Origin: Oscillospiraceae bacterium
Lineage (GTDB): Bacteria; Bacillota; Clostridia; Saccharofermentanales; Saccharofermentanaceae
Assembly: GCA_902789515.1 (NCBI GenBank)
Contig: CADAOK010000035.1
Location: forward strand, 1-40,092
Direction: 5' to 3'
Length of the DNA stretch: 40,092 bases
Notes under the pieces: generated by a model
Database searches by the model: none
Told to the model about the DNA's origin: nothing
Seen by the model: the letters and a program-made list of their open reading frames with translations, nothing else
Shown here: positions 2,462 to 40,092 of the stretch, piece after piece
Layout: each line of letters opens with the position of its first letter
How positions within the stretch are numbered: the stretch's first letter is position 1
Made by a program: the position numbers and the translations under genes

Positions 2462-3658
2462 ATGGGTCTTTCTGACAAGGATAACAGTTCTTTCCCGAAA
2501 GAGACTGAGACGCGGGTGCGCCCGGGTTCGCAGCTCCCTTCAGAGGAGAAGAAGCCTGAGACTGCGGCTGCAAAGCGCGCGGCAGGTTCTGCTGCATCCA
2601 AAACCAAGAGCAAAGCAAAGGTTAAGGCCAAGCCGCCCAAGGCTCATAAGTCTGCGGATGAGACTGCCGGCAAGTATGCCATGTCGGTCATACCCAAGGC
2701 ATATGAGACACTCATTCCAGACGATATCCCGGAATTCGAAGATACACCCGAGAGACGCGCTCTTGTTGAGAAGCGTAAGAAAGGCCATTTCAGAAGGAAG
2801 TTAAGAGACTGGGGAATATTTACCGGTTACCTTACACCGAGCCTTCTCGGCGTTATGGTGTTCTTCTTCCTGCCGCTCATCCTGCTCCTTAAGACTTCAT
2901 TCCAGAAGTCACCTACGAATGCGGACTTTGTCGGTTTCCGTAACTACGAGAGAGTACTGACCAATGCCGCGTTCATATCAGCTTCAAAGAATACACTGAC
3001 ATTCGCGCTCATCTCCGTTCCGCTTGCGGTTGTCCTTGCACTGTTTTTGGCGATGCTCCTCAACTCGGGACTTCCGGGCAAGTCGGTGTTCAGGAGTATC
3101 CTTCTCAACCCGATGATGGTACCGGTCGCATCCGTCGTGCTCATATGGCAGGTGTTCTTCTCATACAACGGCGTCATCAACGGATGGACGGCACAGCTGT
3201 TCTCATGGGATAAGATCGACTGGCTCAAATCGCAATATGCGCAGATAGTCATCATGTTATTGTTCTTATGGAAGAACCTGGGTTATAACATGGTCCTCTT
3301 CCTTGCGGCTCTGAATGCGATACCGTCCGAGATACTCGAATCCGCATCGCTGGACGGCGCGGGCCCGGTCAAGCGTTTCTTCGCCATAAAGCTTCATTAC
3401 TTAAGCCCGACGATTTTCTTTGTCGGCATCATGTCGCTCATCAATTCATTCAAGATATTCAGGGAAGTCTACCTTCTTACGGGTGACTATCCGTTCGATA
3501 ACCTTTACATGCTGCAGCACTTCATGAACAACAAGTTCACGCAGCTCGACTACAGCCTGCTCTCTTCAGGCGCCATCGTAATGTGTATCGCGATGATCAT
3601 CATCGTAGGTATACTGTTCTATTCCGAATCCAAGTTTGATTCGGATGTGGAGGAATAA
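2462..3658 (+). CDS. ABC transporter permease, MalF/UgpA type, with long N-terminal extension
   Basis: Integral membrane permease of the carbohydrate-uptake (CUT1) family. Residues about 120-398 form the usual six-helix core, from GYLTPSLLGVMVFFFLPL onwards. The coupling (EAA) loop reads ESASLDGAGPVKRFFAIKL, close to consensus but with H where a proline is normal after I-x-L. The first ~110 residues are an added cytoplasmic, low-complexity tail rich in Lys, Ala, Pro, Ser and Glu (AAKRAAGSAASKTKSKAKVK), which ordinary CUT1 permeases of about 290-300 residues lack. It leads an operon with a 3-bp gap to the next permease. There is no solute-binding protein or ATPase gene beside it. The fold is confident; substrate and direction of transport are unknown. 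Confidence 0.88.
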   Translation: MGLSDKDNSSFPKETETRVRPGSQLPSEEKKPETAAAKRAAGSAASKTKSKAKVKAKPPKAHKSADETAGKYAMSVIPKAYETLIPDDIPEFEDTPERRALVEKRKKGHFRRKLRDWGIFTGYLTPSLLGVMVFFFLPLILLLKTSFQKSPTNADFVGFRNYERVLTNAAFISASKNTLTFALISVPLAVVLALFLAMLLNSGLPGKSVFRSILLNPMMVPVASVVLIWQVFFSYNGVINGWTAQLFSWDKIDWLKSQYAQIVIMLLFLWKNLGYNMVLFLAALNAIPSEILESASLDGAGPVKRFFAIKLHYLSPTIFFVGIMSLINSFKIFREVYLLTGDYPFDNLYMLQHFMNNKFTQLDYSLLSSGAIVMCIAMIIIVGILFYSESKFDSDVEE

Positions 3659-3661
3659 GCC

Positions 3662-4717
3662 ATGGACGCTGAACTGAGAAAACAACGCAGACTGGCCGCT
3701 ACCAAAGCGAGACGTAATGTCTTTACCGAGACCGTACACCCGAAGTCTTACTTCGAGCAGATGACGGATGCGGAGCGCGAGGCATTCTTTGCAAGAGAGA
3801 AGAAGAGATCCGCGACTGCCCTTAAGCAGAGGAAGGTCAGGAAGACCATACTGACTGCCTTAGGACTTATGATCGCGGCAACGATATCGCTCCTTGCACT
3901 CGTCCCGATCTTCTTTACATTCCTTAATTCGTTCATGTCATCTGATGAGATCATCAACAATTACTCGGTCATCTTCCAGAGTATGTCCGGTCATAATTCT
4001 TCAGGTGCGACATACCTGTCGAGGACACCGGTCCTCAAGCTCATACCTGAGGAAGTAACGATCAAGCAGTACACGACGCTCCTGTTTATGAACCCGGCAT
4101 ATCTGTTCAAGTTCTGGAATTCGATCGTCCTGACGCTTCCGATCGTCGGAGGACAGATGGCGGTCGCTTGCCTTGCGTCTTACAGTTTCGCGAGATACAG
4201 AAAGAAGAGGAGAGAGGTGTTGTTCTTCTCGTACATCATCCTCATGCTCATGCCGTTCCAGGTTACGCTCGTTCCGAACTACATGATCGCGGATGCCCTC
4301 GGGATACTGAACACATATTGGGCCATCATCCTTCCGGGTGTCTTCTCGACCTTTGCGATCTTCCTCCTCACGAAATACATGAGGCAGATACCGTCGGGCT
4401 ATATCGAAGCTGCGACGATAGACGGCGCGACAGAGTGGCAGATCTTTACCAAGATAGCCATACCGCTCTGTAAGAACGCGATATTTGCCCTTACTATCCT
4501 TTTGTTTATAGACTATTGGAACATGGTCGAGCAGCCGCTCGTACTTCTTACCGATACGGAGCTCCAGCCTCTGTCGGTGTTCCTTGCGCAGATAAATGAG
4601 CCGGAGATAGGCATCGCCTTTGCGGCTTCGGCAGTATATATGATTCCGCCCCTGCTGATATTCCTCTGGGGTGAGGAATACCTAGTAGAGGGTATCTCGA
4701 GATCAGGCATTAAGTAA
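3662..4717 (+). CDS. ABC transporter permease, MalG/UgpE type
   Basis: Partner permease of the preceding gene. After a charged N-terminal tail of about 60 residues (ERFF-like EREAFFAREKKRS segment) it has a first helix near residues 63-85, a longer than usual first external loop (about 86-150), then the core helices. The EAA coupling loop, IEAATIDGATEWQIFTKIAIPL when read across residues near 235-256, is canonical for docking to an ATPase. At 351 residues it is about 70 longer than typical MalG homologues (about 280). It ends 13 bp before the adaptor gene, with AACGGAGG before that start, so all four genes are probably one transcript. Its likely ATPase is a shared MsmK/UgpC-type protein such as the one starting at 39838 (inference). 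Confidence 0.88.
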   Translation: MDAELRKQRRLAATKARRNVFTETVHPKSYFEQMTDAEREAFFAREKKRSATALKQRKVRKTILTALGLMIAATISLLALVPIFFTFLNSFMSSDEIINNYSVIFQSMSGHNSSGATYLSRTPVLKLIPEEVTIKQYTTLLFMNPAYLFKFWNSIVLTLPIVGGQMAVACLASYSFARYRKKRREVLFFSYIILMLMPFQVTLVPNYMIADALGILNTYWAIILPGVFSTFAIFLLTKYMRQIPSGYIEAATIDGATEWQIFTKIAIPLCKNAIFALTILLFIDYWNMVEQPLVLLTDTELQPLSVFLAQINEPEIGIAFAASAVYMIPPLLIFLWGEEYLVEGISRSGIK

Positions 4718-4730
4718 CGGAGGATCAAAA

Positions 4731-6461
4731 ATGAAGAACAGGCGTAAGATTATTGTAAGGATCATGGTGGCGTTCGTTGCGGCACTCGCACTTCTGACCT
4801 TCTTTTCAAACACGATCATGAATCTGACTATTCCTAAGGTCATGGGTGAGTATGCGACCAGAGGAAACCTTGCATATACGAATACCGCATCGGGTACCAT
4901 CAAGGTCGAGAATGAGACCAAGCTTACCGGCGTGGAAGGAAGGACGATAGACCAGGTGCTGGTTACCAACTACGATACCGTCGAAGTCGGCGATGTCATT
5001 GCCACGCTCAAGCCTGTCGAGAACACCGATGATCTCGAGACACTTCAGGATAAGCTGACACAGCTCCAGCGTGATAAGGAATATGCGGAGAGGGAACCCG
5101 ACACAAACGACCTGTCTACATACGAGACTGCAGTTGACACTGCACAGGAGTCCCTGACAACTGCTCAGGAAGGACTTACCGCTTCACAGAACAAGCAGGC
5201 TACTATAGATGCTGCAGATTCCACCATCCTTGATCAGTCTGCCCAGCTGGCGACATTCCAGTCAGCGCTGGATTATGCCACAGCCGAGAAAGCGGGATAC
5301 GAAGATCAGATCAAGACGATCGATGATGCCATCTCACCGCTCTCGACACAGTTGCTTGTATACCAGTCATACGGATATGCGATCACTGTCGAGGAAGAGA
5401 CAGGATACTACAGGTTTACCGCTTCAACCGGTGAGACGGAATCCGACCCGATAATAACGGATCCGACAACATGGACGGACGAAGAGAAGATCAGGGATCT
5501 CTGCTTCCAGATCAACCAGTACATCGATGCCAAGGTTCCTCTCCAGGAAGGACTCGACGCTGCACAGGCTGATATAGATTCCAACAGTTCCGCTGTGGCA
5601 GCTTGTGAACTTGCGATCACGAATGCGCAGACGGCAAAAGAAGCTGCGGAAGAGCTTCCTTCTGTATCTGATGCACAGAAACTCGTTGACCAGGCTCAGA
5701 CGACCCTTTCAACAGCACAGCAATCGCTGTCTGACGCGCAGGTCAATGCAGGCATCGAAGCAGATAAGGCGCAGGATGCCGCAGACGACAGAGACAAGGA
5801 GATCGCAGAACTCGAGGTCGAGATCGCAGAACTCGAAGAGAAGATAGGACAGACAGAGATCAAGGCTACGGCAGCCGGTTATGTATACAACCTTTCTATT
5901 GAAGAGGGAACCGTCATGGATAAGAACCAGACGATCGGTTACATTATCCCTGAGTACGACAGAGAGTGCACGGCCACTTTCAGTTTCCCTACAGATGTTG
6001 CTTCAAGACTCAACATCGGTGATGAGATGGATGTTACGGCGGGTTATGTTGATTCCTGCGTGATCATCAATATCAAGCCGGATCCCGAGAACCCGAGAGA
6101 GTACAAGCAGGTCAAGTGCAAGATCGACGATTCGTATGCTTTCCCCGGAGAAGCGATCACGGTCCGTGCAGATAAATCCAACAAGGATTATGAATGCGTC
6201 ATTCCGAGCAGCGCAGTCAACAAGGATAATTCCGGTACATTCGTATATCAGATCATCGGATCATCCAGCCCGCTCGGCGACAAGTACACTGTTAAGCGTG
6301 TCGACGTAACTGTCCAGGATGACGACGGAACATATGCTGCAATTTCCGGCGAGAAGCTGGATAAGGATGCAATGATCGTCGTAAGGAGCGAGAAACCTCT
6401 CGAGGACGGCGAGCGCGTCAGACTTGAAGACTTTGATTCAGACAAGAAGAAAAAATCCTGA
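4731..6461 (+). CDS. HlyD-like membrane fusion/adaptor protein with long coiled coil
   Basis: 576-residue membrane-anchored protein. One N-terminal helix (about 9-30) is followed by a first lipoyl half (GTIKVENETKL...VEVGDVIATLKP, about 55-100), two helical arms rich in Gln, Ala, Thr and Glu (about 105-225 and 280-375), a second lipoyl half (EIKATAAGYVYNLSIEEGTV) and beta-barrel segments near 415-540. A non-helical insertion with YYRFTASTGETESDP and DPTTWTDEEK (about 225-260) sits where the hairpin tip is expected. This is the order found in HlyD/MacA adaptors, which in Gram-positives pair with ABC transporters. Here it follows importer-type permeases and precedes a MacB-like extracellular-domain protein, an unusual set. 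Adaptor fold is well supported; partner and cargo are not known. Confidence 0.85.
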   Translation: MKNRRKIIVRIMVAFVAALALLTFFSNTIMNLTIPKVMGEYATRGNLAYTNTASGTIKVENETKLTGVEGRTIDQVLVTNYDTVEVGDVIATLKPVENTDDLETLQDKLTQLQRDKEYAEREPDTNDLSTYETAVDTAQESLTTAQEGLTASQNKQATIDAADSTILDQSAQLATFQSALDYATAEKAGYEDQIKTIDDAISPLSTQLLVYQSYGYAITVEEETGYYRFTASTGETESDPIITDPTTWTDEEKIRDLCFQINQYIDAKVPLQEGLDAAQADIDSNSSAVAACELAITNAQTAKEAAEELPSVSDAQKLVDQAQTTLSTAQQSLSDAQVNAGIEADKAQDAADDRDKEIAELEVEIAELEEKIGQTEIKATAAGYVYNLSIEEGTVMDKNQTIGYIIPEYDRECTATFSFPTDVASRLNIGDEMDVTAGYVDSCVIINIKPDPENPREYKQVKCKIDDSYAFPGEAITVRADKSNKDYECVIPSSAVNKDNSGTFVYQIIGSSSPLGDKYTVKRVDVTVQDDDGTYAAISGEKLDKDAMIVVRSEKPLEDGERVRLEDFDSDKKKKS

Positions 6462-6472
6462 CGGGGGACAAA

Positions 6473-7777
6473 ATGGCTTTTAAAGACAGCATAAAGGAAT
6501 ACTTCCGCGAGACAGGATCCTCGAACAAGAAAAGGATTAAGAGCATTGTTCTTGCAGCTCCGTTCTGGATAATACTGGCTGCCATCGTCCTGATCTGTGC
6601 AGGATTCATAAGGATATCGGTCCTTACATCAGCCCGCCAGGAGCAGTATATGGCTACCTACTGGGGACAGGGATCTGATGTGTCGTACAGACAGATGAGC
6701 GTTTTAGCGCGCGGGGCAAGACCTGTGGACGATATGACGCCCCTGATGTATGTGAGTTCGGATATATCCCTGCGCAAGTCGGATATCCCTGTTATCAGGG
6801 CTGCGATCCAGGGCACTGTGGATGCTTCAAATCCGAATCTTCCCGAGAAGGCAAAGGGCCTCGATACCGACGGTTCGCCGAAGGGATGGGAGGACTGCTA
6901 TTCCTCATCGGTCATGGCAAACGTAATGCTCGTGAATGAAGAAGAGAAAACATCACAGGATACGATCATACCCAATGTCGATGCCGAGATCATCGGAGTC
7001 GGCGGCAACTATAAAGCTTTCCATCCGTTCAGGTTCCTCTGCGGCGGCTTCCTTCCCGAAGTGCAGATCGACAGGAACCAGATAGTCGTCAACGATATCC
7101 TCGCATGGAACTTCTTTAAGTCTTATGATGTCGCAGGCCGCAAGGTCTCGATCGGCGGTGAGACATTTACCATCATAGGCGTAGTCGAGGAACAGGATAC
7201 GGAGATCGACGGACTGGCCGGTGCGGATAAGCCGAGAGCGTATATCTATTTCGACAGACTTACCATTCTTATTCCCGCAGGTGCCGCAGCATCCACGGCA
7301 GATGCTTCTTATGCGGATCCTTCCACGGGCGGAACTGATTCGGCGGGTTCTTCGGATGTACTTGCCATCCAGTGCTATGAGGCCATGATGCCCGAGCTCG
7401 TTAAGGGTGTTGCAATTACCGACATCAAGGGTGCGCTCCCGACATATGCGCTGACTGACCCGAAGATTTTTGTTCTCAGCAATACGGACAGATACACACT
7501 GGTGAGTGTCTGGGACTGGGTATTCCCGATAGGCGAGACGCAGAGCCAGCTTACGGGTTATGAGCTTCCCTATTGGGAGAGAGCGGCTCAGCTGACCACA
7601 ACGAGGGTGTTCTACGATATGGTCATGATCTTTGCGGGATTCCTTCTCCTCCTGATCGGAGGCATGATGGTATTCCTCAGGTTCCGCAAACCCAAGCCGG
7701 CTTCTGAGACGGCCGATACTGCTGAACCGGATAAGACCGAAGAAGAGATCAAACTGCTGGAAGAACAGACCAAATAA
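6473..7777 (+). CDS. Bitopic membrane protein with MacB-type periplasmic core-like domain
   Basis: 434 residues with a helix near 24-46, a large extracellular region, a second helix near 381-404 and a charged cytoplasmic tail. In the outer domain, residues about 180-245 (FRFLCGGFLPEVQ, QIVVNDILAWNFF, AGRKVSIGGETFTIIGVVEE) follow the pattern of the MacB/FtsX-linked core domain. The FtsX permease domain itself (three further helices after the core) is missing, and a Ser/Ala/Gly-rich stretch near 265-300 replaces part of the fold. It lies 11 bp after the HlyD-like adaptor gene, so the two probably act together outside the membrane. It could be a scaffold or mechanotransmission piece; no enzymatic residues are recognisable. 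Confidence 0.7.
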   Translation: MAFKDSIKEYFRETGSSNKKRIKSIVLAAPFWIILAAIVLICAGFIRISVLTSARQEQYMATYWGQGSDVSYRQMSVLARGARPVDDMTPLMYVSSDISLRKSDIPVIRAAIQGTVDASNPNLPEKAKGLDTDGSPKGWEDCYSSSVMANVMLVNEEEKTSQDTIIPNVDAEIIGVGGNYKAFHPFRFLCGGFLPEVQIDRNQIVVNDILAWNFFKSYDVAGRKVSIGGETFTIIGVVEEQDTEIDGLAGADKPRAYIYFDRLTILIPAGAAASTADASYADPSTGGTDSAGSSDVLAIQCYEAMMPELVKGVAITDIKGALPTYALTDPKIFVLSNTDRYTLVSVWDWVFPIGETQSQLTGYELPYWERAAQLTTTRVFYDMVMIFAGFLLLLIGGMMVFLRFRKPKPASETADTAEPDKTEEEIKLLEEQTK

Positions 7778-7913: not shown

Positions 7914-9515
7914 ATGCCATTTGATTACATTTTACCGATCGGCATAGGCCTCGGAGTAGTACTGGTTATCGCAATAATACTGTCAGGATACGTAAAGGCA
8001 CCGCCGGATGTAGCTTACATCATCTCAGGACCTAGGAGAAAGAAGAAAATCCTTATCGGTCAGGCCGGAGTTAAGATCCCGTTTATTGAGAGAAAAGACA
8101 CGCTGCTCCTTAAGCAGATCAGCATCGATATCAAGACAAGCGGCTATGTTCCCACAAACGACTTCATCGGTGTAGACATCGACGCAGTCGCTAAGGTAAG
8201 AGTCAAGACCGATCCGGAAGGCATCGAGCTCGCTATGAAGAACTTCCTCAACATGGACGAGGAAAGGATCGTAACAGCACTGACAGACTCTCTCCAGGGT
8301 AACATGCGTGAGATCATCGGTACCGTAGGTCTGAGAGAACTCAATACCGACCGTAAGAAGTTCGGTGACGAGATGCAGACCAAGGCGCAGACAGACATGA
8401 ATGCACTCGGTATCGAGATCATCTCCTGCAACATCCAGAGGATCGAGGACGAGAAAGGTCTTATCCTTGCTTTAGGTCAGGACAACATGTCCCAGATCCA
8501 GAAGGACGCTTCCATCGCTAAGGCTCAGGCTGAAAGAGACGTAGCGATCGCAGAGGCAGATGCTAAGCAGAAGGCAAACGAGGCTTCCGTCGCTTCGCAG
8601 ATCATTATCGCAGAGCGCCAGAATGCACTTGCAATCAAGCAGGCTAACCTGCAGGTAGAAGCTGATACAAAGAAGGCTGAAGCAGATGCTGCTTATGAGA
8701 TCCAGAAGCAGGAACAGCAGAAGGTCATCGGCGTAAAGGCAACGGATGCAAGCATCGCTAAGACCGAGCAGGAAGCTATCCTGAGACAGAAGCAGGTCGA
8801 GGTCAGACAGCAGGAACTCGAAGCTGAGATCAACCGTAAGGCTGACGCAGACAAGTACCAGAAGCAGAAGGCAGCAGAGGCTGCTCTCATCGAGAAGCAG
8901 AAGGCTGCAGAAGCTGCACTCTACAATCAGCAGAAGCAGAGCGAAGCTGAGAGGGTAATTGCCGAGACTGAGAAGTACAAGGCAATCCAGGATGCGGAAG
9001 CAAAGAAGGCATTGGCTGAAGCTCAGCGCTATGCGGCAGAGCAGGAGGCAGCAGGTATCAAGGCTAAGTACGATGCTGAGGCTGCAGGTATCCAGGCAAA
9101 GGGTCTCGCAGAGGCTGAAGCTATGGAGAAGAAGGCTGAGGCAATGAAGAAGTACGGTCAGGCAGCTATCCTCGAGATGATCGTCAGCGTACTTCCCGAT
9201 GTTGCAAAGGCAGTTGCAGAGCCTCTGTCCTCTATCGACAAGGTCACTGTATTCGCAGGCGGCGCAGACGGCGGAAACGGTGTGCCGGGCATATCGGCAA
9301 ACGTTCCGACAGTCATGGCTCAGACATTTGAGACAGTTAAGGCTGCTACGGGCGTAGATCTGGTCGACATCGTCAAGGCTTCCGGTTACGACGCTAAGGT
9401 AACACGCAACATCAATGTCTCCGGACCTGAAGGTGCAGACGGCAACGTCACTGATACGGTAACCGCTGCGGCAATCGCAGATGCCGTATCCGACAAGGGC
9501 GAAGACAACAAATAA
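7914..9515 (+). CDS. floT: Flotillin-family membrane scaffold protein
   Basis: 533-residue flotillin. An N-terminal hydrophobic segment (residues 6-26) anchors it, the PHB/SPFH domain covers about 30-200, and the flotillin domain is a long Ala/Glu/Lys/Gln helical coiled coil (about 200-430) with repeated AEAA and KQKAAEAAL units. The C-terminal third (VLPDVAKAVAEPLSSIDKV) is the usual oligomerisation segment, followed by a Gly/Ala/Asp-rich tail. Flotillins organise membrane microdomains in Gram-positives and influence secretion, signalling and cell shape. GGAGGG precedes the ATG. The usual NfeD partner gene is not next to it. It stands alone between two terminators, directly after the adaptor operon. 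Confidence 0.95.
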   Translation: MPFDYILPIGIGLGVVLVIAIILSGYVKAPPDVAYIISGPRRKKKILIGQAGVKIPFIERKDTLLLKQISIDIKTSGYVPTNDFIGVDIDAVAKVRVKTDPEGIELAMKNFLNMDEERIVTALTDSLQGNMREIIGTVGLRELNTDRKKFGDEMQTKAQTDMNALGIEIISCNIQRIEDEKGLILALGQDNMSQIQKDASIAKAQAERDVAIAEADAKQKANEASVASQIIIAERQNALAIKQANLQVEADTKKAEADAAYEIQKQEQQKVIGVKATDASIAKTEQEAILRQKQVEVRQQELEAEINRKADADKYQKQKAAEAALIEKQKAAEAALYNQQKQSEAERVIAETEKYKAIQDAEAKKALAEAQRYAAEQEAAGIKAKYDAEAAGIQAKGLAEAEAMEKKAEAMKKYGQAAILEMIVSVLPDVAKAVAEPLSSIDKVTVFAGGADGGNGVPGISANVPTVMAQTFETVKAATGVDLVDIVKASGYDAKVTRNINVSGPEGADGNVTDTVTAAAIADAVSDKGEDNK

Positions 9516-15296: not shown

Positions 15297-17027
15297 ATGC
15301 AAGAAAGAAAAAAGACGATCATAGTCAACACGCTTCTGACTATTCTGTTCATAACGGGTGAGGTAATCCTCGAGGTCCTCATCCCTAACATCACGTCCGG
15401 CATGGTTAACGGCATCAAGGACGGCGTGCCTCTGGAAGTTACCCTGAGCACCGGCGGACAGATGGCCATTGCAGCTGTTGTATCTCTCATCTGCGGTTCC
15501 CTGGCCGGCAGCTTTGCTGCCAAGGCTTCATCCAATCTGGCAGGCGCACTGAGGCATGACATATTCAGGAAGGTTCAGAGCTTCTCCTTCGGAAATATCG
15601 ATAAATTCTCCACATCGTCTCTGGTAACGAGGATGACAACCGATATCACCAATGTTCAGAATTCCTACATGATGGTCATCAGGACGGCAATAAGATCGCC
15701 CTTTATGCTCATCTTTACGATTATCATGGCTTTCAGGATGAGCTCCGAGCTTGCGGTGGCCTTCGTTATCGTCGTGCCGGCTATGGCTTTCGGGCTCATA
15801 ATGATAGGTAAGTTCGCGATGCCCGCTTTCCGTGCGGTGTTCAAGAAGTACGACCGCATGAACGAGTCCATAGAGGAGAATGTCCGCGGAATGCGCGTTG
15901 TTAAGGGTTTCGCGAGAGAACAGTACGAGACAGAGAAGTTTACCAAAGCATCTGAAGGCATAAGGCTCGATTTTACCAAGGCCGAGAGGATCGTAAGCCT
16001 TAACGGACCGTTGATCGAGCTGTGCATGTTCTTTGATACGGCATTCATTCTCTATGTCGGTGCGCAGCTCGTAATCGGCAGCAAGGGACAGGATATCGAT
16101 GTCGGACAGATCTCAGCGATGCTGACTTACGGCGCGATGATCCTGATGTCACTCATGATGATCTCTATGATCTATGTCATGCTGACCATGTCGCTCGAAT
16201 CGGTAAAGCGTATCAGGGAGGTCCTCAAAGAAGAGCCTTCCATCACCAATCCTGAGAATCCCGTAATGGAGGTCATTGACGGTACGATAGATTTCAGTGA
16301 TGTTGCATTCAAGTATTCAGAGAATGCTTCCCGCGACGCACTCTATGATATCGACCTTCACATCGACAGCGGCATGACAGTCGGAATACTCGGCGGAACG
16401 GGTTCGTCGAAGACAACTCTCATCCAACTCATACCGAGACTCTATGATGTTACGGACGGCGAGCTTAAGGTAGGCGGAGTTCCGGTAAAGGATTACGATG
16501 TAAAGACCTTAAGAGATGCAGTATCTGTAGTGCTCCAGAAGAACGAACTGTTCTCCGGCACGATTAGGGATAATCTCAAGTGGGGCAATGAGCAGGCTGA
16601 TGACGACGAGATCGTGACCGCGTGTAAGATCGCGCAGGCAGACGAATTCATCTCACAGATGCCTGACGGTTATAACACTTATATAGAGCAGGGCGGAACG
16701 AACGTATCAGGCGGACAGAAACAGCGTCTGTGCATCGCGCGTGCCCTTCTCAAAAAGCCCAAGATCCTGATCCTGGACGATTCGACATCAGCCGTTGATA
16801 CAAGAACTGATGCGCTTATCCGCAAGGGATTCCGCGAGTATATTCCCGAGACGACAAAGATCATCATCGCGCAGCGTGTGGCTTCCGTCATGGACTGCGA
16901 CATGATCGTGATCATGGACAACGGTAAGATCGCGGATAAGGGAACCCACGACGAACTCATGCAAAGATGCGATATCTATCGCGAGATATACGAAGAACAG
17001 ACAAAGGGGGACGATGGCAATGACTGA
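15297..17027 (+). CDS. ABC exporter half-transporter, degenerate nucleotide-site subunit
   Basis: 576 residues: an exporter-type membrane domain (about 1-300, six helices) and a nucleotide-binding domain. Walker A is GGTGSSKTT near 366-374 (S replaces the usual G before K), the signature is VSGGQKQ near 470, Walker B ends LDDSTSAVD with Asp in place of the catalytic Glu, and the switch His is Gln (IIIAQRVASV). These changes mark the non-catalytic site of heterodimeric exporters such as TM287/288 and BmrCD. It overlaps the second subunit gene by up to 14 bp, which favours coupled synthesis at equal amounts. Cargo could be drugs, lipids or peptides; nothing nearby decides. Confidence 0.93.
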   Translation: MQERKKTIIVNTLLTILFITGEVILEVLIPNITSGMVNGIKDGVPLEVTLSTGGQMAIAAVVSLICGSLAGSFAAKASSNLAGALRHDIFRKVQSFSFGNIDKFSTSSLVTRMTTDITNVQNSYMMVIRTAIRSPFMLIFTIIMAFRMSSELAVAFVIVVPAMAFGLIMIGKFAMPAFRAVFKKYDRMNESIEENVRGMRVVKGFAREQYETEKFTKASEGIRLDFTKAERIVSLNGPLIELCMFFDTAFILYVGAQLVIGSKGQDIDVGQISAMLTYGAMILMSLMMISMIYVMLTMSLESVKRIREVLKEEPSITNPENPVMEVIDGTIDFSDVAFKYSENASRDALYDIDLHIDSGMTVGILGGTGSSKTTLIQLIPRLYDVTDGELKVGGVPVKDYDVKTLRDAVSVVLQKNELFSGTIRDNLKWGNEQADDDEIVTACKIAQADEFISQMPDGYNTYIEQGGTNVSGGQKQRLCIARALLKKPKILILDDSTSAVDTRTDALIRKGFREYIPETTKIIIAQRVASVMDCDMIVIMDNGKIADKGTHDELMQRCDIYREIYEEQTKGDDGND

Positions 17028-18993
17028 AAACAAGTCCGATGTAAAGTCTGCTAAGGCTCCCCAGGGACCCGGCGGAAGACGTAAAGGTCCGGCTTCGATG
17101 TCGGATGTCATGGCTTCCGCAGGAAGCCTCAAGCGTGTCATGAAGCTGTATTTCAAGACATTCCCGAAGCTTACCCTGCTTATAGGTGTATGCGTCACTG
17201 TAGGTGCGATAACCGCTGCAATCCCTGCAGTATTCCAGCAGAAGGTCCTCAAGGTAATTGAAGGCGCTTTCGCATCAGGTGACTGGGAAGCGGCCAAGCC
17301 TCAGATCCTTCACTATATCATCCCGCTTATCTGCCTTTATGTGTTCGCGCTTATCCTGAGTGTTGTTCAGTCCCAGGTCCTTGCGTATATGACACAGAAG
17401 TTCCTTGCCAAGATGAGGGAAGAGATGTTCTCGAAGATGCAGACTCTGCCTCTGAGTTATTTTGACACTCACAAGCACGGCGATATCATGAGCCACTATA
17501 CGAACGATATCGATACATTGAGGCAGTTCGTATCCATGGCATTCCCTACGATGATCCGCGCCGGCATCGTTGTGCTGTCGGTATTCTTCATCATGCTCTA
17601 TTACAGCGTATGGCTGACACTCATCCTGTGTCTCGGCATAGTTCTCATGGTCTTCATCACGGGCAGGGTCGGAGCAGGCTCATCGAAATACTTCCTGCGC
17701 CAGCAGAAGGCGGTTGCCTCCACGGAAGGTTTTGTCCAGGAGATCATGAACGGCCAGAAGGTAGTCAAGGTCTTCAATCACGAGCCTGAGGCCATCGAAC
17801 AGTTTGATGTGCTCAATGACGGTCTTACAGAAGACAGCGGCAAGGCTAACATGTATGCGAATATCCTGGCTCCGATAATCAACAATATCGGAAACATCGT
17901 ATATGTTCTTATCGCCATACTTGGCGGTGTCATGATGTTCTTCGGCTTATCGAATCTGTCTTTATCAGGTCTTGCTTTCGGCATCGATATCATGGTTCCG
18001 TTCCTCAATATGAGCAAGCAGTTCATGGGCAACATGAACCAGCTCACCATGCAGATGAATGCCATCGTCATGGCAGGAGCCGGCGCACAGAGGATCTTCG
18101 ATCTTATCGACAGAGAGCCCGAGACCGACGACGGATATGTAACCCTGGTTACCTGTGATGTCGCTGAAGACGGCACGATTACCGAGACTGACCATACCAC
18201 CGGACACTGGGCATGGAAGCATCCCCACCAGGCTGACGGTACTATCACATACACGGAGCTCAAGGGTGACGTCAGGCTTACGGATGTTGATTTCGCGTAT
18301 GTTCCCGACAAGCAGGTCCTTTATGATGTGTCCGTTTTCGCCGAACCCGGACAGAAGGTTGCCTTTGTTGGCGCTACCGGTGCGGGCAAGACAACGATCA
18401 CGAACCTTATCAACCGTTTCTACGATATCGCAGACGGTAAGATCAGATATGACGGCATCAATGTAAACAAGATAAAGAAGAGGGACTTAAGAAAGTCTCT
18501 GGGCCTCGTTCTTCAGGAGACGAACCTGTTTACGGGCAGTGTTATGGAGAACATCAGATACGGCAGGCTCAGCGCGACCGATGAGGAGTGCCGCGAGGCA
18601 GCAAGGCTTGCAGGTGCAGCTGACTTTATCGAGAGACTGCCTGCCGGATACAATACCGAACTGACGAACAACGGTTCAAACCTCTCTCAGGGCCAGAGAC
18701 AGCTTATCGCGATCGCGAGGGCGGCTGTAGCAAATCCTCCGGTAATGATCCTCGACGAGGCTACTTCTTCGATCGATACGCGTACAGAGGCGATAGTCCA
18801 GCGCGGCATGGATAAGCTCATGGAGGGACGCACGGTGTTTGTCATCGCTCACAGGCTCTCAACGGTAATGAATTCCGATGTCATCATGGTCTTAGATCAC
18901 GGAAGGATCATCGAGCGCGGATCTCATGAACAGCTTATTGCAGAGAAGGGCACATACTACCAGCTCTATACCGGAGCTTTTGAACTTGAATAA
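17014..18993 (+). CDS. ABC exporter half-transporter, catalytic subunit
   Basis: 659-residue partner of the previous subunit. The membrane domain covers about 45-350 after a basic Lys/Gly/Pro tail. The ATPase domain has intact Walker A (GATGAGKTT near 453), Walker B with catalytic Glu (ILDEATSSID) and switch His (VIAHRLSTV). Its signature is LSQGQ rather than LSGGQ; that motif faces the degenerate Walker site of the partner, so both halves of the inactive site are altered. A segment of about 45 residues precedes the ATPase core (near 375-420, with TGHWAWKHPH), a variant also known from other Firmicutes exporters. GGGGG at 17006-17010 is close to the ATG at 17014 (3 nt) and better spaced for an ATG at 17020 (9 nt), so the true start may be 17020. 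Confidence 0.93.
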   Translation: MAMTENKSDVKSAKAPQGPGGRRKGPASMSDVMASAGSLKRVMKLYFKTFPKLTLLIGVCVTVGAITAAIPAVFQQKVLKVIEGAFASGDWEAAKPQILHYIIPLICLYVFALILSVVQSQVLAYMTQKFLAKMREEMFSKMQTLPLSYFDTHKHGDIMSHYTNDIDTLRQFVSMAFPTMIRAGIVVLSVFFIMLYYSVWLTLILCLGIVLMVFITGRVGAGSSKYFLRQQKAVASTEGFVQEIMNGQKVVKVFNHEPEAIEQFDVLNDGLTEDSGKANMYANILAPIINNIGNIVYVLIAILGGVMMFFGLSNLSLSGLAFGIDIMVPFLNMSKQFMGNMNQLTMQMNAIVMAGAGAQRIFDLIDREPETDDGYVTLVTCDVAEDGTITETDHTTGHWAWKHPHQADGTITYTELKGDVRLTDVDFAYVPDKQVLYDVSVFAEPGQKVAFVGATGAGKTTITNLINRFYDIADGKIRYDGINVNKIKKRDLRKSLGLVLQETNLFTGSVMENIRYGRLSATDEECREAARLAGAADFIERLPAGYNTELTNNGSNLSQGQRQLIAIARAAVANPPVMILDEATSSIDTRTEAIVQRGMDKLMEGRTVFVIAHRLSTVMNSDVIMVLDHGRIIERGSHEQLIAEKGTYYQLYTGAFELE

Positions 18994-19621: not shown

Positions 19622-21685
19622 TCAGACCTCTTCCTGCTTAGTTTTCCGGACTGATCTTCCCTGCTTTACCTTGTACAGGGCGATTATTGCTGCAACAACG
19701 GCAAGGCCTGATACCGATACGGCAAGGCCTGTGTAGAAATTTCTTTCCACGTATCTGACAGAGATGTGGTGCTCTCCGGGAGGGCAGACCACCTTTATCT
19801 CCCACAGATTTGAATCCGCCTCAATCCCGGCCGGTTCCCCGTCAATGGTGCAGGTAAAGTATTCATCGTGCGCATAGTTCATGGTTATCTCTCCTCCGGC
19901 AAATCCGGCCGGAGTGGTAAGCTCGAGGCTGTTTACCTTTTGTTCCAGAGCTATCCCGTTACCGTCTTCGTCGTACGCCAGAGGCTCACAGAAGGAATCT
20001 TCGAAGATCACTTTACTGTCGTCCTCGAATACCTCAGTGATGCCGTACTGCCCGAAATATGCCGTAAAGGCATCCTTGTTCCTGATGTCTGAGACATACC
20101 ATCTTACAGAACGGCCCCGCATCTCCTCAACGAAACCGGGATATACATCCGGAAGCTCGCCGGAGAGCTCCGTAACATGTGAGAAAAATTCGGAATACTC
20201 CTTAACGTCGCTCTTCATCATTACATCGTAGTACCCGCTGACACTGTTGAACCCGAAGTAAGATGCAAGATCGTACTCAAGTGTAGACGTCGTATCGATC
20301 ATCTGAAGACCGCTGACAGGATCGATAGTTACCGGGCAGAAGCACACGGATACATATCGTCCTTCCGCAAGGTTATCCGCATACTCTTCCTCGAAAGGAA
20401 TCTTGCTGGTGCAGATGATCCCCGCGGTCTTGCGCGGTGCCATCATATATAGCCCGAGAAGGCTTACAGTCTGGATAACGAGGAATGCGGCAAACAGGAC
20501 ATTAACAGGTTTCCCGCGCTTTTGCTGCAGATATTTCCCGATCACGGTCATGGTAAGTGAGGATATGACGATTACCGCAGATATGGTAATTATCGTCAGT
20601 TTATGCTGATATCTGAATCTGTTGAGTATCGGGATGAGATAGATGATCCGGTTGAATCCGACACTCAGCATCCACAGCAGGGATATAGCGCAGACGGGGA
20701 GAGATGCCGCCATGCCGGTCATCTCTTTCCTGTAAGAACCGAAATTCCTTCCCAGCGTGACTCCAAGGAATATCAGGAGGATCGCACCTACTGCAGTAAA
20801 TACCGCAGAGATAATGCCGAAGAAACCGACTCCGGATATCAGTCTGTAGCTCGTGAAAGTCTCAAAAGACAGCTTGTCCGCTCTCTCGCTCATAGCCGTA
20901 AGATCAAGCATCGGGAGCATGAGAGGGAGGCAGGCGAGAGTTACTATCACATAGCTAACCGCATACTCGCCGATGAGTTCGATGAACGAGCGGGATCTCT
21001 TCTTTGACTTATCCTTATCAATAAGTACATAAGAAGCAGCAAATATAAAGTCGAAGATCGCAGAATAGATGAAGAACTGGGGATGCCCGCAGTAAAAGAG
21101 TGCGATCCTGGGAACAGAAGCCAGGAGAAGATTGATGACGGAGTGTCGCTGGTGGAGCCTGAATGTTCCGTAATACATCCAGGGAAGCGCAGCAGTCGTC
21201 ATCATGACTATTATCCACGAGTCGCCTATGCAGATGTTATATGTGTTGAGGTTCCACCCGACAGCACCTATTATGGCGGGGATCCTCGTGCAGCCGATCT
21301 CGCGGAGGAACAGATAAGCACCGGCAGAGCCCGTCATGATAAGGATAAGCGCCATGATATCGATGGTGGCATCGATGTGCCCGAAGATGAGCCGGCTTAC
21401 GGCTGCGGCTATGAAAACGAGCGGATTGAGCGAGCCGGTCTGTCCGGTCCCGAGAAAGCGTTTGCCGCAGAACTGGTGGAAGTTATAGAACGGGAATTCC
21501 CCGCCGAGCAGGGATCTGACCGAATGCTGATACATACACAGATAAGCATCGGCATTGTCATCGTTGAGGAAGAAATAGGGAAAGCGTATCTCCAGGAGCA
21601 CGAAGAACAGCAAGCAGATCAATAAGATCACTGCCAGATCGGTCGTATATTGCTTCCTGACTGATAATTCCGCCTTCTTATTCAT
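19622..21685 (-). CDS. YfhO-family membrane protein coupled to the SCIFF maturase gene
   Basis: 687-residue polytopic protein, last gene of the SCIFF operon. Helix 1 (LAVILLICLLFFVLLEIRF) is followed by the YfhO-like loop FFLNDDNADAYLCMYQH, then about eleven more helices to residue 420, an external domain (about 425-640, ending CPPGEHHISVRYVERNFY) and a last helix with a basic tail. The loop with DDNADA takes the place of the acidic catalytic region of GT-C glycosyltransferases (inference). Its start lies 8 bp inside the maturase gene and the ribosome-binding site must be within it, so its translation is tied to the maturase. A glycosyltransferase-fold protein joined to a thioether-peptide operon is unexpected; chance placement is possible. 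Confidence 0.8.
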   Translation of the reverse strand: MNKKAELSVRKQYTTDLAVILLICLLFFVLLEIRFPYFFLNDDNADAYLCMYQHSVRSLLGGEFPFYNFHQFCGKRFLGTGQTGSLNPLVFIAAAVSRLIFGHIDATIDIMALILIMTGSAGAYLFLREIGCTRIPAIIGAVGWNLNTYNICIGDSWIIVMMTTAALPWMYYGTFRLHQRHSVINLLLASVPRIALFYCGHPQFFIYSAIFDFIFAASYVLIDKDKSKKRSRSFIELIGEYAVSYVIVTLACLPLMLPMLDLTAMSERADKLSFETFTSYRLISGVGFFGIISAVFTAVGAILLIFLGVTLGRNFGSYRKEMTGMAASLPVCAISLLWMLSVGFNRIIYLIPILNRFRYQHKLTIITISAVIVISSLTMTVIGKYLQQKRGKPVNVLFAAFLVIQTVSLLGLYMMAPRKTAGIICTSKIPFEEEYADNLAEGRYVSVCFCPVTIDPVSGLQMIDTTSTLEYDLASYFGFNSVSGYYDVMMKSDVKEYSEFFSHVTELSGELPDVYPGFVEEMRGRSVRWYVSDIRNKDAFTAYFGQYGITEVFEDDSKVIFEDSFCEPLAYDEDGNGIALEQKVNSLELTTPAGFAGGEITMNYAHDEYFTCTIDGEPAGIEADSNLWEIKVVCPPGEHHISVRYVERNFYTGLAVSVSGLAVVAAIIALYKVKQGRSVRKTKQEEV

Positions 21686-23057
21686 CTCCCGGTTTCCTGA
21701 TATCTGAAGTCAAGAGCTTTACTGCGATCGCGCATTCAATACGCTTGCAAAACAGTTTGCATCCGTAATCGTATACGCCGCTGATGTCTCCCGTTGCATG
21801 GTAGGCATTGGCAGCACAGCCGCCTGAGCAGTAGAGCTTTGCCCAGCAGTCCCTGCATTCGGGCCTGCTGTAGGCATTGCAGGATGCGAACTTGCTGCGC
21901 ATGTCTGTGTTGGTCACGCCCTCATATATGTCACCCATCTTATACTTGTCATCGCCGACAAACTGGTGGCAGGGATAGAGATCACCCCACGGTGTTACGG
22001 CAAGATACTCAGTACCGGAACCGCATCCTGCTATCCTCTTGTATATGCAGGGGCCGCATGTCAGGTCCAGCATATAGTGATAGAAAGTGAAGGGGCGGCC
22101 TTCCTTGTGCCTTTGGACCATGAGCCTTGCGAGTTCGTCGTACTGCTCAAAGATGACGGGAAGATCCTCTTCGGTCAGAGCGGAAGGGGATGCCGGATCG
22201 GTTACGACCGGTTCCATGGAGAGCTCCGTGAATCCCAGATCGAGGTAATGCTTTATATCATTAAGGAAATCAGGGTTGAAGTGCGTGTATGTGCCGCGCA
22301 TATAGTAGCTCTTGCCGTCTCTTTGCGCGACGAATCTTTGGAAGTTCGGAACGATCTTGTCGTAGGAACCGTTGCCGGCGTAGTCGACCCTGAACCTGTC
22401 GTTGACTTCCTTGCGTCCGTCGAGAGAGAGGACCACATTGTGGAATTCCCTGTTCGCGAACTCCGTGACCTCATCGTCGAGCAGCACGCCGTTGGTCGTA
22501 AGCGTGAACCTGATGTTCTTATTGTGGAGCTTCTCCTGTTCTCTGCCGTATGCGGTAAGCTGCTTTACCACTTCCCAGTTCATGAGAGGCTCGCCGCCGA
22601 AGAAATCGATGTCCAGGTTCTTGTGGAAACCGGAATTCTCTATCAGGAAGTCGATCGCACGCTTGCCCACCTCATAGCTCATCAGTGCACGGTCGCCGTG
22701 GTACTTGCCCTGACTTGCAAAGCAGTAGGAGCAGTTGAGGTTGCAGGTATGTGCCACATGCAGACAGAGAGCCTTGATATTGAAATTCTTTTTTCTGAAA
22801 TCGCGGGCAAGGTTCTCGTATTTGTCCGGTGCGTACAGTTTGCCGGCCTCTTTGAGACTGTCGATGTCCGAAAGACACTCTTCGGCTTCTCCCCGGGTGA
22901 TCTTGTGCTCCGTGACAGCCCTGGAGATGACATCTTCCGCGGGCTGTGTCTCATACCATCTGATCATGTCATATGCCACGGGATCGACCATGTGGATCGA
23001 GCCCGAATGGCAGTCGAGCACTATGTTAAGTCCGTCAAACTGATAGCAGTGAATCAT
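21678..23057 (-). CDS. scfB: SCIFF maturase, radical SAM/SPASM protein
   Basis: 459-residue radical SAM enzyme that forms Cys-to-alpha or other thioether links in the SCIFF precursor peptide (ranthipeptide class; characterised homologue CteB). Residues 1-90 form a RiPP-recognition-like domain. The [4Fe-4S]/SAM motif is C105-NLN-C109-SY-C112, with FFGGEPL following. The SPASM region holds clustered cysteines between about 340 and 445 (CGPC, GCGSGTEYLAVTPWG, PCHQF, CRDCWAKLYCSGGC, CKLFCKR) that bind two auxiliary clusters. It lies 73 bp after the precursor gene, beyond a terminator hairpin. The Shine-Dalgarno is weak (GGTTGGT), so expression is probably low. Family assignment is very secure because of the adjacent six-cysteine peptide. 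Confidence 0.96.
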   Translation of the reverse strand: MIHCYQFDGLNIVLDCHSGSIHMVDPVAYDMIRWYETQPAEDVISRAVTEHKITRGEAEECLSDIDSLKEAGKLYAPDKYENLARDFRKKNFNIKALCLHVAHTCNLNCSYCFASQGKYHGDRALMSYEVGKRAIDFLIENSGFHKNLDIDFFGGEPLMNWEVVKQLTAYGREQEKLHNKNIRFTLTTNGVLLDDEVTEFANREFHNVVLSLDGRKEVNDRFRVDYAGNGSYDKIVPNFQRFVAQRDGKSYYMRGTYTHFNPDFLNDIKHYLDLGFTELSMEPVVTDPASPSALTEEDLPVIFEQYDELARLMVQRHKEGRPFTFYHYMLDLTCGPCIYKRIAGCGSGTEYLAVTPWGDLYPCHQFVGDDKYKMGDIYEGVTNTDMRSKFASCNAYSRPECRDCWAKLYCSGGCAANAYHATGDISGVYDYGCKLFCKRIECAIAVKLLTSDIRKPGDE

Positions 23058-39837: not shown

Positions 39838-40092
39838 ATGGCAAGTTTATCTTTCCAGCATGTTTACAAGAAGTATGAAGGCGGCGTTGTAGCTGTATCA
39901 GACTTTAATCTCGATGTTGCAGATAAGGAATTCGTTATCCTGGTAGGACCTTCCGGTTGCGGTAAGTCAACAACTCTCCGTATGCTCGCTGGCCTCGAGG
40001 ACATTTCCGAGGGCGAGATCTACATCGACGACCGTTGCGTTAACGACGTTCTTCCTAAGGACAGAGATATCGCGATGGTTTTCCAGAACTAC
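39838..40092 (+). CDS. msmK: Sugar ABC transporter ATPase, MsmK/UgpC type (N-terminal part)
   Basis: First 85 residues of a CUT1-type ATPase that powers sugar uptake; the gene runs off the window. [20 protein letters not shown] is the standard N-terminus, Walker [10 protein letters not shown] lies at 37-45, and the Q-loop begins MVFQNY at 80-85. Such an ATPase is often a single shared motor for several permease pairs in Firmicutes, so it may serve the permeases at 2462-4717 (inference). GGAGG at 39826-39830 precedes the ATG. A long leader with a terminator-like hairpin lies upstream. Confidence 0.95.

Follow-up and report, generated by a model that had tools for sequence, protein, structure and literature searches.

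The four adjoining genes at positions 2462-7777 probably encode a CUT1-type importer with two obligatory MacAB-family subunits, which would build a collar serving as docking and gating platform for many binding proteins. Judged from their sequences and neighbours, the four genes form one conserved unit in hundreds of genomes of gut and rumen Clostridia. The membership of the parts is established, as are the gene set, its co-inheritance, the folds, the binding-protein and ATPase partners seen in relatives, and the conserved membrane helix of the adaptor.

The window is the whole stretch of DNA analysed (40,092 nucleotides), an entire contig of a 1.93-Mb genome that is 75.5% complete. The four open reading frames lie on the + strand and are separated by gaps of 3, 13 and 11 bp, in agreement with an earlier note on this DNA, which had described four genes tied together by these gaps. 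Promoter and terminator scans gave no signal above chance. The first gene (2462..3658, +) encodes PermF, a MalF/UgpA-type ABC importer permease of 398 aa, assigned by BPD_transp_1, by the UgpA/GlcT/MalF families of NCBIfam and by alignment. The second (3662..4717, +) encodes PermG, a MalG/UgpE-type permease of 351 aa, assigned by Pfam, alignment, conservation and a gap in bit scores. The two permeases match BPD_transp_1 of Pfam with E 2.5e-12 and 7.1e-17; their best NCBIfam families are UgpA/MalF and GlcU/UgpE/MalG, both below the curated cut-offs. An EAA-type loop is retained in both proteins according to the alignments (ESASLDGAGPVKRFFAIKL; EAATIDGATEWQIFTKIAIP), so that Pfam, NCBIfam and alignment agree with the identification of two MalF/MalG-type permeases with EAA coupling loops, as in CUT1 importers. 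The signature of the PermG clade is DYWNMVEQP, and its members scored 455-603 bits against 118 bits or less for ordinary MalG proteins in the genomes compared. The N-terminal tail of PermF is about 120 residues long. The long permease tails remarked on earlier are real, but the alignments reveal them to be a trait of the window's sub-clade; the permeases of many relatives begin about 15-40 residues ahead of the first helix.

The third gene (4731..6461, +) encodes a HlyD/MacA-type adaptor of 576 aa, as had been proposed, with matches to HlyD_3 (Pfam, 2.2e-5) and to RND_mfp (NCBIfam, 1.3e-20, below the curated cut-off). Sequence comparison of the adaptor with the PDB returned chance matches only, and in the long-form set adaptor length did not correlate with binding-protein length (r = -0.04). 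The membrane helix of the adaptor holds a near-invariant motif, LTFFSNTIMN (residues 22-31), and no segment of the protein is more conserved than the helix stretch LALLTFFSNTIMNLTIPKV. In control adaptors of the same family (n=19, from genuine MacB loci and their neighbours) the helix lies at the 9th percentile of conservation, and the contrast persists when the importer-linked adaptors are subsampled to 19. Contact between adaptor and permeases is suggested because the helix is conserved, unlike that of the MacB-partner adaptors of the same family; such conservation fits a fixed intramembrane partner, which would most simply be PermF/PermG.

The fourth gene (6473..7777, +) encodes the PCD protein, 434 aa long, with a MacB-type core domain and two membrane helices. 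It matches MacB_PCD of Pfam at residues 168-262 (E 2.4e-8), and no FtsX permease match was found in it by Pfam. In the structure model (pLDDT 78) two long membrane helices, 29-53 and 367-404, flank an extracellular domain of MacB type, with matches to MacB (3ftj, Z 15.1), YknZ (5f9q, Z 13.5) and Spr0695 (5xu1, Z 13.9). The PCD protein is thus modelled as a cut-down MacB-type subunit, because the domain shared with MacB, YknZ and Spr0695 sits between only two membrane helices. Both Pfam and the model bear out the description of a MacB-type core without FtsX permease, and the folds of the 576- and 434-residue proteins are those predicted, not the unrelated ones that would have spoken against the earlier reading. 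Compared with MacAB, the set therefore has the HlyD/MacA-type adaptor and the MacB extracellular core fold; the four-helix FtsX/MacB permease is replaced by two long helices, and no MacB-type ATPase, fused or adjacent, occurs within the operon. In a single relative (L172, 11072-14353) the PCD protein and a large binding protein are fused in one ORF of 1093 aa, with the lipoprotein signal peptide kept between them.

A scan of the species collection with the PermG alignment yielded at least 550 confirmed stretches, 80 of which were fetched for inspection. By forward-frame reading, the adaptor adjoins PermG, directly downstream, in all 80, and the PCD gene is present in 77 of the 77 assessable loci among them. 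The arrangement is far beyond chance, since it is present in 80/80 loci examined. The order is invariant in the 65 loci in which all four genes are clean ORFs, with median gaps of -4, 24 and 13 bp. Within the window's family a PCD match was found in 104 of 115 genomes (a few of these being weak MacB matches only) and an adaptor match in 100 of 113. Strong adaptor matches adjoin a PCD match in 101 of 104 cases; the remaining three are on split contigs. In the 13 family genomes without adaptor, PCD matches are likewise limited to weak MacB hits, and the best PermG score is 118 bits, against 580-603 in two carriers. The earlier note had asked how often the four genes co-occur, and had recognised that its reading would suffer if the last two genes were found mostly without the permeases, or usually beside a MacB ATPase/permease. 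These counts give neither result, and genuine MacB loci stand apart from the operon in the same genomes. A distant member (L193, 1016-8117) keeps all four genes in the order binding proteins-HlyD-PCD-PermF-PermG, with a PermG score of 292 bits and a weak PCD match (E 6.5e-4, below the Pfam cut-off). Named records of relatives come from rumen and gut bacteria labelled Saccharofermentans, Mageeibacillus or 'Ruminococcaceae/Clostridia', and then from Lachnospiraceae, e.g. Butyrivibrio, Blautia and Acetatifactor. No relatives of the PCD protein turned up when viral contigs and plasmids were searched. The mixed set of importer and exporter parts hence exists as described, departs from the standard sets, and is conserved in different genera and families.

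A flotillin (FloT-type) gene (7914-9515, +) directly follows the operon; among the loci checked this is so only in the window and its near relatives L060 and L061. In Butyrivibrio (L148, L178) an NfeD-SPFH pair lies 3' of the operon's downstream binding protein. A conserved link of the operon to flotillin/SPFH or to DUF711 was considered and rejected, as these occur in small sub-clades only. Elsewhere in the window, a YfhO-type gene is followed by a pair of overlapping genes for ABC exporter half-transporters that probably form a heterodimer (15297-18993, +), and a 687-aa protein with no Pfam match overlaps a radical SAM/SPASM gene (19622-23057, -).

The ATPase expected of a CUT1 importer, of MalK/UgpC/MsmX type, is available in the operons of relatives and as a partial copy in the window. 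The latter, the first 85 codons of a UgpC/MsmX-type gene (39838..40092, +), is cut by the contig end and is 69% identical to the ATPase of a complete operon (L097). A full-length ortholog is found in a genome of the window's genus (G073), downstream of the operon at a distance of about 35 kb. In other families a UgpC/MalK-type ATPase is encoded inside the operon (L078, L097, L189-L192, L171). L097, L189, L190 and L192 are complete operons that include a UgpC-type ATPase and a binding protein, and L078 and L191 have the ATPase together with a large binding protein. Response regulator and histidine kinase genes were seen near L189, L190 and L192, which have the ATPase and a short binding protein.

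In most relatives the permeases are adjoined by a roughly 800-residue lipoprotein that has a solute-binding protein as its C-terminal half. This large binding protein lies upstream in 51/72 and downstream in 38/71 assessable loci; a short binding protein occurs in the operons of one clade in other families. In a structure model (pLDDT 83) residues 369-792 match sugar-binding proteins, the top match being CbpC of Clostridium thermocellum (Z 24.3). The N-terminal half (~350 residues) is modelled as nearly all strands and is possibly a propeller; structural matches are confined to 369-792. At least two large binding proteins are encoded elsewhere in the window's own genome, unlinked to the operon: the family profile alone detects the copy on contig C29, and the one on C55 also matches Pfam. 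The extracellular sugar-type binding protein of CUT1 importers is accordingly represented by SBP_bac_1/8 matches in relatives and by these two unlinked copies. The earlier statement that there is no binding protein holds for the immediate neighbourhood but not for the genome, and its suggestion that extracellular parts replace a binding protein is contradicted both by the loci of relatives and by the window's own genome. The binding proteins of relatives, the copies in the same genome and the UgpC/MsmX-type ATPase indicate that the system is an importer with all the usual parts plus two extra ones, and not an exporter devoid of binding protein. It is to be read as a CUT1 variant and not a plain member, because the membrane part is more than two permeases: adaptor and PCD protein accompany them in all assessable loci.

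Large binding proteins number from 6 to more than 12 per complete relative and are mostly orphans; 20 of 20 scattered copies (G000, G073, G008, G027) have no such permease within 3 kb. Lachnospiraceae genomes hold 3 to 34 stretches matching the binding protein. The translocon is present once per genome as a rule, next to as many as about 30 orphan binding proteins, and dozens of scattered binding proteins apparently share it, although they could also be served by other MalFG permeases. Among 13 translocon-less genomes, seven are without any such binding protein and six have them. The absence in 7/13 of these against 0/10 carriers (Fisher p 0.007) is supportive backing only, the genomes being related and the carriers picked near the window; the seven double-negative genomes may represent a single loss event. 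That no translocon was detected in these six, among them G103 (94% complete) and G017 with about 30 large binding proteins each, is due either to an assembly gap or to the use of another permease.

From these observations we infer a physical complex with the following geometry and function. PermF and PermG would form the pore, powered by the common UgpC/MsmX-type ATPase, and large lipoprotein binding proteins, operon-adjacent or orphan, would hand over the substrate. Resting on the permeases, the two-helix PCD protein and the adaptor, the latter through its conserved helix in the membrane, would together make up an extracellular collar. This collar would be a common docking and gating platform on the outer side of the membrane, by which one translocon serves many different large binding proteins. 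Such a docking hub would explain both the many orphans and the single translocon. From family and habitat, the cargo is likely to be oligosaccharides. It is a tentative proposal, less likely than not, that the operons represent a distinct class of ABC importers whose MalFG permeases bear a collar of MacA-like adaptor and MacB-core subunit, with this collar as a universal dock for tens of large orphan binding proteins on one translocon.

The two added subunits can be accounted for in other ways. The adaptor has the order of parts of a membrane fusion protein (MFP), and the Gram-positive adaptor Spr0693 forms a hexameric nanotube across the inner wall zone (PMC5768738). A hexameric adaptor tube could thus guide long substrates across the wall zone as far as the importer, with the PCD protein seating the tube on the permeases and the binding proteins loading tube or pore; this is rather unlikely, as the binding proteins fold as ordinary oligosaccharide binders, for which no tube is needed. 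A mechanical role is a little less probable again. Here PCD protein and adaptor would, in the manner of MacB, relay the permeases' ATP cycle to the outside, and release or exchange binding proteins or act on a wall component instead of docking. The PCD fold is that of MacB mechanotransmitters, the conserved helix of the adaptor suggests an intramembrane coupling, and the pneumococcal adaptor requires its cytoplasmic region and helix for ATPase stimulation (PMC5985334); however, the PCD protein has lost two of the four MacB helices and no ATPase of the MacB kind adjoins it.

Adaptor and PCD protein might instead be a separate device (e.g. a YknXZ relic), merely co-transcribed with an ordinary importer, and free-standing relatives are known for each pair. 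Strict co-inheritance and conserved order, the rearranged yet complete set of L193, the joint absence in 13 genomes and a PCD protein without ATPase of its own make this very improbable. Least credible is an exporter using importer-type permeases. HlyD adaptors do work with exporters in known systems, yet the permeases carry EAA loops, and UgpC/MalK-type ATPase and sugar-type binding proteins are encoded in the same operons. The 'tripartite envelope machine' considered earlier is, in the export sense, likewise unlikely, given that the ATPase is an import-type one (UgpC/MalK).

The collar-bearing importer, if true, exemplifies the recruitment of exporter parts for import. MacAB-type pumps are regarded as machines separate from importers, and by family matches alone these genes pass for efflux adaptors. 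So widespread a hybrid would alter how carbohydrate uptake is read in Lachnospiraceae and in Saccharofermentans-type bacteria of the gut and rumen. Many binding proteins per genome are without an assigned permease, and the hub reading offers them a testable partner. The set was not described in the open literature searched, a scope outside which most subscription journals lie; one apparent match was rejected, MACB1018 being a strain name. The parts are known; the permanent combination is apparently new, no description having been found.

CUT1 importers (MalEFGK2, UgpABCE; MsmX/MsmK-powered) share with the present system the two EAA-loop permeases, a common UgpC/MalK-type ATPase encoded apart, and lipoprotein binders with the sugar-binding fold. 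They differ in that the operon described here always has two added subunits, its binding proteins carry the strand-rich N-terminal half, and many orphan binding proteins are found per translocon. MacAB-TolC, YknWXYZ and Spr0693-0695 likewise have a HlyD/MacA-type adaptor followed by a MacB extracellular core protein. In contrast to these, the core protein here is two-helix and lacks FtsX permease and MacB-type ATPase, the partners are importer permeases, and the adaptor helix is highly conserved and not variable. ECF group II importers and the multitask ATPase MsmX offer an analogy of one energised module for many substrate-recognising proteins, although here the common module would include CUT1 permeases and the proteins are unrelated. 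MCE systems (Mla, Let) are analogous in concept, being ABC importers extended by spanning parts outside the cytoplasm; the operon has no MCE domain, and its adaptor and permeases are unrelated to theirs.
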